From Pseudanabaena frigida (GTDB lineage Bacteria; Cyanobacteriota; Cyanobacteriia; Pseudanabaenales; Pseudanabaenaceae): a stretch of DNA of 54,361 nucleotides. The position numbers were made by a program, and so were the translations under genes. Below the pieces are notes generated by a model, which was not told the origin of the DNA, searched no databases, and saw only the letters and a list, made by a program, of their open reading frames with translations. The stretch is taken from assembly GCA_003242085.1 (NCBI GenBank), contig QBML01000037.1, positions 1 through 54,361 on the forward strand. Direction: 5' to 3'. Below are positions 1 to 24,716 of this stretch, piece by piece; the first letter of the stretch is position 1, and each line of letters begins with the position of its first letter.

Positions 1-90
1 AAACCCAAATAAATAGAGGCGGCGCTTCGCGCCGCCTCTATTTATTTGGGTTTTAATTTGTCCTAGCTATCTCTTTCATTGCTATATATA
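1..90. repeat. Right part of a MITE-like hairpin element, cut by the window edge
   Basis: Bases 1-25 and 29-53 form a perfect 25-bp inverted repeat around the loop TTC, with the core GGCGGCGC/GCGCCGCC. After the hairpin comes the module GTCCTA (about 60-65) and then CATTGCTATATA (77-88). The same hairpin-then-module order is seen after the hairpins at 18290 and 21094, so this is the right part of that repeat family. The left flank lies outside the window. Confidence 0.75.
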
Positions 91-6271: not shown

Positions 6272-6341
6272 TAGCCAGTAATATTTTGCTAGCAAATACT
6301 AGCTTTTTATAGCAAGATAGCTTATACTAGCATTTGATAGC
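6272..6341. promoter_or_regulatory. Helically phased TAGC direct repeats before the RHH-like gene (operator candidate)
   Basis: The tetramer TAGC starts at 6272, 6290, 6300, 6310, 6318, 6328 and 6338. The last six are spaced 10, 10, 8, 10 and 10 bp, about one helical turn each. The array ends only 6 bp before the ribosome-binding site and overlaps a possible -10 box (TATACT, 6323-6328). Ribbon-helix-helix proteins commonly bind such phased repeats, and the gene just downstream encodes one, so autoregulation is the simple reading. That step is inference. Confidence 0.6.
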
Positions 6342-6358
6342 AGAATAAGGTGTTTCGA

Positions 6359-6865
6359 ATGGCAAAGAAAAGACAGTTGAACGTAAGGCTCCCCGATGCT
6401 TTGTTGAGTCAGTTGGAAGACCGCGTACTGAAAACCAAGATGGGGATGGCAGCGATGGTAGAAGTTCTTCTGGTGCAAGCATTACAGATGCAAGAAGTTT
6501 CTGAAAATACAGCCCCTCCAGAAGATCACGTTGATAGTCTGGTAAAACGTATCGAAGCGCTAGAAGCTAAAGTATTTGCTCAAGCTAACACTTCTACGCA
6601 GACTGAGATACCTACTCTTGAAGAATCATCATCTACTACAATGTCCGTTGCAAATATTGCACCTGACATTGAGAAACATCAAACCAACGATTTAGAAGCT
6701 TTAAAAGGAGAAAGTCTGGCAACTCGATTAAATGTTGAAGTACGTATTCTAAATCAGAAAAAAGATAAAAGCACCTTTTCTAATTGGGCTAAGAAACATG
6801 ACCTAGAGGGGATTGCTTGGAAATATGTTGCTTCCGAAGATTGCTTCTATCCCATTGCTAATTAG
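6359..6865 (+). CDS. Ribbon-helix-helix-like DNA-binding protein with a cyanobacterial C-terminal domain
   Basis: This encodes 168 residues from the ATG at 6359. An in-frame GTG at 6350 is possible, but the AAGG at 6347-6350 is well placed as ribosome-binding site for the ATG. Residues 1-45 (KKRQLNVRLPDALLSQLE...) have the beta strand plus two helices of a ribbon-helix-helix fold. Residues 50-110 are polar, Ser/Thr/Glu-rich and probably disordered. The last 55 residues (LATRLNV...FSNWAKKHD...GIAWKY...FYPI) match a small domain I associate with other cyanobacterial RHH-like proteins. It probably binds the TAGC array in its own promoter. It could be a solitary repressor or an orphaned antitoxin or partition-type protein. 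The target genes are unknown. Confidence 0.75.
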   Translation: MAKKRQLNVRLPDALLSQLEDRVLKTKMGMAAMVEVLLVQALQMQEVSENTAPPEDHVDSLVKRIEALEAKVFAQANTSTQTEIPTLEESSSTTMSVANIAPDIEKHQTNDLEALKGESLATRLNVEVRILNQKKDKSTFSNWAKKHDLEGIAWKYVASEDCFYPIAN

Positions 6866-6880
6866 TTAGGCAATTAATTT

Positions 6881-6973
6881 TAGGACTTATACAAAACGAC
6901 AAATTACAGCGACAATTCATAAATTGTCCCAACCATAAAATAAGGTTCTCAAGGCATTTTTGCATAAGTCCTA
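6881..6973. repeat. 93-bp inverted-repeat element (MITE-like)
   Basis: The ends are TAGGACTTATACAAAA (6881-6896) and its near-perfect complement TTTTTGCATAAGTCCTA. Inside, GACAATT/AATTGTC forms a small second hairpin around CATAA. No coding content is seen. The size and symmetry suggest a non-autonomous mobile element or a large terminator after the RHH-like gene. Confidence 0.5.
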
Positions 6974-7139
6974 AATTTTTAGGAACTATCAGTAATTGGA
7001 AATTAAGTAAGTCGGCTATCTACCACAAAAGCAATGTGTGTTCTACTCTAGAACGTCTACGGGTATCACTTTGTGATGTCTATCTCGAGCGCAAAGTTTC
7101 AGTTTTCAATCTAATTATTTTATGGAGAGAATCTCAGTA

Positions 7140-7535
7140 ATGAAGAATGTAATGTTTGTCTGTCTGGATAGCACCTGTTCGATAGTAGCAGAAGCGTGGA
7201 TGCGCTACATTGCCAAAGGTGCTATTTCTGTAACCAGTTCTGGATTAAGTGTTGGGCAAGTAAGTCCTAAATTTGTGCAGGCTATGGACGAAGTCGATCT
7301 TAATATTAGAGGGATGAAGACGAAGCTAATTAGTGATTACAACCCTAAGGATTTTGATGCTGTGATCTCGCTATGTAATAGTAACATGAGGCTTTCTGAA
7401 GACTGGATGCTCAGACGGGTCTTTGATGAATGGGTTTTACCACAAATACAGGATGAGTCTCTAGAATCGTACAGACAAATCAGGGACGATATCAGAGATA
7501 AAATTGATATTCTTTTGATGCGATATTCAACCTAA
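7140..7535 (+). CDS. ArsC/LMW-phosphotyrosine-phosphatase-fold protein lacking catalytic residues
   Basis: This encodes 131 residues. The ATG at 7140 is preferred because GGAGAG (7124-7129) lies 10 bp upstream and the length then equals that of cyanobacterial thioredoxin/glutaredoxin-linked arsenate reductases (ArsI type). The fold is clear throughout, from VMFVC at the N-terminus to VISLC. The chemistry is not: the P-loop should read C-X5-R-S but reads CLDSTCSI, so the phosphate-binding Arg is replaced by Ser. The resolving CGC pair near residue 80 is C79-N-S, and the DP acid-loop motif is missing. It is therefore probably not an arsenate reductase or phosphatase. It may be a binding or regulatory pseudo-enzyme, or a decaying gene that is still open. 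A weak hairpin (7569-7615) follows. Confidence 0.75.
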   Translation: MKNVMFVCLDSTCSIVAEAWMRYIAKGAISVTSSGLSVGQVSPKFVQAMDEVDLNIRGMKTKLISDYNPKDFDAVISLCNSNMRLSEDWMLRRVFDEWVLPQIQDESLESYRQIRDDIRDKIDILLMRYST

Positions 7536-24691: not shown

Positions 24692-24716
24692 TAGCTTTAC
24701 TCACTTTATAGCTAGC

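Follow-up and report, generated by a model that had tools for sequence, protein, structure and literature searches.

The DNA-reading strand of Arc, a ribbon-helix-helix (RHH) protein of phage P22, reads Q-F-N-L-R-W-P, and two Arc dimers bind one 21-bp operator. Gln9, Asn11, and Arg13 of Arc contact its TAGA box (PMC12645479). RHH autorepressors of the CopG/RelB type cover their own promoters through several short sub-sites on one face, and the RelB operator contains four 6-bp repeats (PMC2812701). In the type II partition system ParR-parC and in the type Ib systems of omega and ParG, RHH proteins likewise act on phased repeats that precede their own genes, and such repeats, with a phase of about 10 bp, are typical of partition systems (PMC5016525).

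The locus described here lies in a window of 54,361 nucleotides, which is the whole of contig C30 of a Pseudanabaena genome. It contains an array of six boxes upstream of a gene for a predicted RHH protein, whose strand shares with Arc the Gln-x-Asn-x-Arg pattern used on TAGA boxes. The array has six boxes where the Arc operator has two, the steps between them are 10 or 8 bp long, and the box reads TAGC or TATC. Compared with the CopG/RelB operators, it contains more boxes, a dyad-symmetric block, and a distinct central step, and a toxin partner was not found. Unlike the ParR-parC and omega/ParG systems, it is a single and apparently chromosomal array, with no motor gene among the scanned neighbours. 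We believe that the array is probably the operator of the RHH gene itself, bound by RHH dimers that limit their own synthesis. A literature search found no account of the protein family or of the array, with most subscription journals outside its reach.

Layout and conservation of the array

The original prediction described six TAGC tetramers at steps of 10, 10, 8, 10, and 10 bp, the last one at the ribosome-binding site. A sequence count agrees with this description. TAGC starts at each of the six boxes (Table 1), the steps from 6290 to 6338 are 10-10-8-10-10, and box 6 ends at 6341, shortly before the AAGG of the putative ribosome-binding site and the ATG start codon of the RHH gene at 6359-6361. 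We note that the mechanical list of open reading frames begins this frame at GTG 6350, as opposed to ATG 6359. A seventh TAGC, predicted 18 bp upstream of the first box, is present (6272 to 6290 is 18 bp) but is not conserved in the other six loci. The idea of a phased repeat array is correct with respect to the spacing, which is conserved in all seven loci, but the array consists of six TA-centred boxes with dyad symmetry and is not a pure direct repeat.

Table 1 Features of the array and of the adjoining genes in the window.
Feature	Position	Strand	Basis
Seventh TAGC, outside the conserved array	6272..6275	+	no counterpart at this position in six orthologues
Operator-like array, six TA-centred boxes	6287..6342	.	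7 aligned upstream regions, 39/62 columns invariant
Box 1, GCTAGC context	6290..6293	.	TA 7/7; TAGC on top strand 2/7, on bottom strand 5/7, window in both
Box 2	6300..6303	+	TA 7/7; TAGC on top strand 6/7, on bottom strand 5/7
Box 3	6310..6313	+	TA 7/7; TAGC on top strand 5/7
Dyad centre of the array	between 6314 and 6315	.	dyad matches 20/31 in the window
Box 4, after the 8-bp central step	6318..6321	+	TA 7/7; TAGC on top strand 6/7
Box 5	6328..6331	+	TA 7/7; TAGC on top strand 6/7
Box 6	6338..6341	+	TAGC 7/7
RBS-like AAGG	6347..6350	+	read from the sequence
RHH gene, 168-aa protein: N-terminal ribbon-helix-helix, helical linker, C-terminal domain of ~55 residues	6359..6865	+	ORF, AlphaFold model, fold matches for residues 1-55, profile matches for the C-terminal part
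Predicted RHH domain, residues 1-48, strand Q6-L-N8-V-R10	6359..6502	+	helices 13-26 and 30-48
C-terminal domain, common to cyanobacterial plasmid proteins and predicted membrane-anchored proteins	6683..6850	+	profile matches
ArsC/LMW-PTP-like protein gene, without the P-loop arginine	7140..7535	+	adjoins the RHH gene in 7/7 loci

None of the simulated Markov windows, 200 for each of the orders 1, 2, and 3, contained six TAGC tetramers within 52 bp; among 20,000 local order-1 sequences, 21 did. The count alone is nevertheless only moderately rare, because 2 of 60 order-2 windows reach six when any tetramer with at least three different letters is allowed. The TAGC count is therefore suggestive but inconclusive, and the main weight lies on conservation. 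Another TAGC-rich spot in the window, at 24692 (5 in 90 bp), shows no regular 10-bp spacing by eye.

We compared the locus across 26 genomes of the genus. A single-sequence search (E 0.001) detected orthologues of the RHH gene, which is single-copy in its own genome, in six further genomes of this set and in none of 12 genomes of other genera sampled from the order. A profile search of the genus added only weak extras (G003 at E 0.007 and G013 at E 0.08) and, in G023, a match to the C-terminal domain only. Alignment of the orthologous upstream regions had been set beforehand as the test capable of refuting the operator reading, and that reading stood: array and phasing are kept in all seven. 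The encoded proteins are 55-60% identical, and the same six-box spacing precedes every one of their genes. The dinucleotide TA is invariant at all six boxes, and so are two more TA steps that lie within the block outside the boxes. TAGC itself drifts, and is present on either strand in 6, 6, 5, 6, 6, and 7 of the seven loci for boxes 1 to 6, respectively. The mean pairwise identity is 82% over the 62-bp array, compared with 55% at third positions of codons 1-43. For the 60 bp upstream of the array it is 29% ungapped and 45% aligned, based on six loci, as strain ULC187 was left out because its contig ends. The array lies at most about 70 bp from the start codon in six loci, and in the remaining one (L010) it is found 25 bp further upstream with the same layout.

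Searched with a sequence model of the array, each of the seven gene-bearing genomes yields a single strong match at E 9e-17 or better; this holds by construction, as the model was built from these seven arrays. Among the 19 genomes without the RHH gene, the best match is at E 4.9e-4 and falls within a repeat of G022. Weak matches, counted up to E 1, are spread over 25 of the 26 genomes overall. A wider regulon was considered and rejected, as the further matches are weak and phased boxes are absent at the four places inspected (G019:C78, G025:C1, and two in the own genome); the model found no second strong array in the own genome. A strict pattern of the array matches only 4 of the 26 genomes, because three gene-bearing genomes deviate from it.

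These comparisons also bear on the alternative that the conserved block is a promoter with the sites of another regulator, so that the RHH protein is not the binder. Inside the array, the alignment of seven shows a conserved -10-like TATACT or TATGCT, which would fit this alternative. Against it stand the six regular boxes with dyad symmetry and the absence of strong array matches from the genomes without the RHH gene. Furthermore, no strong array precedes the gene that normally lies downstream in the three genomes where it stands alone, and analogous boxes precede distant homologues of the RHH gene (see below). We consider this alternative quite improbable. For the array as the operator of the RHH gene, repeated boxes located near the start codon and conserved together with the gene are, by position and conservation, features expected of an autoregulated RHH operator. 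A point against this reading is that a consensus scan finds no sigma-70-like promoter in the array.

Dyad symmetry of the array

The box spacing is identical when read on either strand, and in one orthologous locus (L008) the two arms, TTGCTATCAAATGCTAGC and GCTAGCATTTGATAGCAA, form a perfect inverted repeat. For the window, 1 of 5000 letter shuffles was as symmetric as the observed 20/31; for L008 to L013, the observed values were reached by 0, 2, 0, 11, 82, and 24 of 5000 shuffles, respectively. Run against the opposite strand, the array model still recognises six of the seven, at E values from 1.6e-6 to 0.027 and in some cases over part of the length only.

Inverted arms could alternatively form a hairpin in the leader transcript, acting as an attenuator, a terminator, or a protein-binding RNA. 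Six of the seven sequences fold better than their shuffles (z of -6.63 for L008 and -2.17 to -4.01 for the others), 82.4% of the helix cells pair, which is above every slid control, and there is one terminator-like match at 6288-6303, with 0.7 expected. On the other hand, the 17-pair stem is poorly maintained: six pairs never vary, one varies on one side, and ten are broken in at least one sequence, with no compensatory double change among the seven sequences, a set of limited covariation power. ULC187 (L012) shows no fold (z +0.53), I3-5 (L013) folds into a different structure, and a stem needs neither the 10-bp spacing nor the conserved loop. The hairpin stays a weak and very improbable rival because most of the sequences do fold. 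Broken pairs, the lack of a double change, and the unfolded ULC187 together favour a symmetry of the DNA over one of an RNA, within the limited power of seven sequences.

The predicted RHH protein and the adjoining gene

An AlphaFold model from the seven sequences contains helices 13-26 and 30-48 in the order of an RHH fold, after an N-terminal strand-like segment; the strand itself is not formed in the monomer model. The pLDDT is about 84-88 over residues 11-40, and the mean of the whole model is 61.4, which is poor overall. The first two Foldseek entries are CopG (probability 0.97) and Arc (0.93), both at E 0.62. VIA gave Z values of 6.3 to Arc (1myk, over 45 residues), 6.8 to CopG, and up to 7.4 overall, a range also reached by common arrangements; nearly all of the VIA matches listed are RHH or related proteins. 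The Pfam profile RHH_5 scores 13.1 bits on the window protein, below the curated cut-off of 26, which we take as divergence. RHH_5 hits all seven members when E values up to 1 are allowed (the lowest is 6.7e-4), and RHH_1 hits six of them. The helices and the matches to CopG and Arc agree with the earlier suggestion of an RHH-like product, and the protein is predicted, with modest support, to adopt the ribbon-helix-helix (MetJ/Arc) fold.

Residues Q6, N8, and R10 are invariant in all seven orthologues, and the strand Q6-x-N8-x-R10 matches Gln9, Asn11, and Arg13 of Arc in the register given by the VIA ranges, 3..47 to 6..50. The protein is thus predicted to carry an Arc-like reading strand. The original prediction pointed to ParR- and omega-type regulators, a likeness that is loose only; in its DNA-reading residues and its box, the locus most closely resembles Arc of phage P22 with its TAGA.

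These features suggest how an operator bound by the RHH protein may work. RHH dimers, up to six in all, would occupy the six TA-centred boxes with their two-stranded sheets inserted into one major groove after the next, three on either side of the dyad centre. They would cooperatively cover the promoter and the start region, so that the RHH protein represses its own synthesis, and the downstream ArsC-like gene may be limited too. We infer the binding, the six dimers, the cooperativity, and the repression, just as we infer a bound operator from a conserved array. The operator part of the original prediction is backed by the comparison, namely by the array and phasing in seven of seven loci, the presence of the array only with the gene, the predicted RHH fold, and the boxes before distant homologues.

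The downstream ArsC-like protein scores 39.5 bits against Pfam LMWPc and 112.5 bits against TIGR02689, for which the cut-off is 157.6. Its gene lies 3′ of the RHH gene in all seven loci, across two genomic contexts. It also occurs without the RHH gene in three Pseudanabaena genomes (G008, G011, and G015), which speaks against a type II toxin-antitoxin pair, and none of these three genomes has a strong array match. All ten ArsC-like relatives read have Ser or Ala in place of the P-loop arginine, which is retained in three canonical ArsC proteins recovered by the same search. The ArsC-like protein is likely a pseudo-enzyme. Between the RHH and ArsC-like genes lies a 95-bp MITE-like element (window 6880-6974) with perfect 17-bp inverted ends of the type TTAGGACTTAYRCAAAA, and a similar element is located upstream of the array in L013. 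The own genome contains seven integrase matches, all on other contigs and none on C30.

Relatives on cyanobacterial plasmids

At E 1e-4, the profile of the protein family hits 89 of the 292 cyanobacterial genomes searched, in most cases by way of the C-terminal domain. Some of the matches are proteins of ~250 residues that have a hydrophobic segment close to their N-terminus and end with the C-terminal domain. Others are proteins of 170-220 residues with an RHH-like N-terminus, encoded on plasmid-sized contigs. The family occurs in 82 plasmid records and in 84 of 118 sampled Nostocaceae-type genomes, and the annotations among the rows listed are hypothetical or Hpt-domain protein.

We screened 80 loci (L051-L070 and L086-L145) for plasmid groups. 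A first protein pattern kept 42 records, 30 of them distinct, of which 29 form group A and one (L059) has another triad; a second pattern kept 24 records, of which the 22 distinct ones form group B. The remaining loci are duplicates or failed the patterns. L070, in neither group, has a TATC-type array by eye. Global profile alignments support a full-length relation between the window family and group B (E 3.5e-14) and between groups A and B (E 3.1e-52). The window family aligns confidently with group A in the C-terminal part only (local alignment, residues 109-164).

Boxes are also found at the start codons of these distant homologues, using box patterns picked after inspection of the upstream regions of the two groups. 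All 29 members of group A have, no more than 45 bp from the start, at least two G[AC]TA[TG]C boxes, compared with 2 of 194 control ORFs. The pair is 12 or 13 bp apart in 27 of the 29, and further boxes are present in two. In group B, a GTGTA[GT]-type box lies within 60 bp in 19 of 22 members (control, 8 of 194), at least two boxes are present in 9 of 22 (control, 0 of 194), and three members are boxless. On individual plasmids, NC_007411 has two boxes just before the gene and a second pair inside it, and AP018313 has six boxes in the interval that separates the gene from a divergent integrase gene. NC_019728, of which 50,000 of 56,464 bases were read, has five boxes just before the gene, three more ~150 bp upstream of an integrase gene, and a pair elsewhere. 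Of ten hand-picked recombinase-looking neighbour genes, which give no rate, Pfam assigns nine to the tyrosine integrases and the other to the serine resolvases. Box clusters adjoin an integrase gene on two plasmids (L148 20679-20704 and L147 5308-5369). The location of box clusters by an integrase gene suggests that the RHH family may also regulate or assist the integrase.

The commonness of the family on Nostocales plasmids and the resemblance of the array to phased partition repeats are the points in favour of a centromere-like site, as the original prediction also considered, with the RHH protein as partition adaptor in the manner of ParR-parC or type Ib systems; this reading is unsupported and very improbable, as the RHH gene is single-copy with no second strong array, the gene and the strong array are missing from 19 of the 26 genomes of the genus, no ParA or ParM was found among the 11 window proteins scanned up to 15.7 kb, the neighbours include the chromosomal housekeeping genes aspS, carA, and Raf1, and, of three plasmids viewed whole or nearly so, two have separate ParA and ParB-type genes and the third has ParA. 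The same scan of 11 proteins places an ABC ATPase, the ArsC-like protein, and a pentapeptide protein at the flanks of the RHH gene, with no adjacent motor NTPase gene.

With the array taken as the operator of its own gene, the window and the plasmids can be joined in one tentative scheme, which we regard as possible and somewhat doubtful. The family with an RHH domain, a linker, and the C-terminal domain may have remodelled its operator several times, with TA-centred boxes retained at the start codon each time: a pair spaced by 12-13 bp in one plasmid group, GTGTA boxes in the other, five or six boxes on some plasmids, and, in Pseudanabaena, six that are arranged as a dyad. The protein might also, on plasmids of Nostocales, control or assist a neighbouring tyrosine integrase, and so plasmid maintenance, and the Pseudanabaena gene would be a chromosomal offshoot. 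Along one protein family, the number, spacing, and letters of the boxes vary while their position at the start codon is constant, which makes RHH recognition and operator geometry directly comparable and points to a possible function for a large gene family common on cyanobacterial plasmids.
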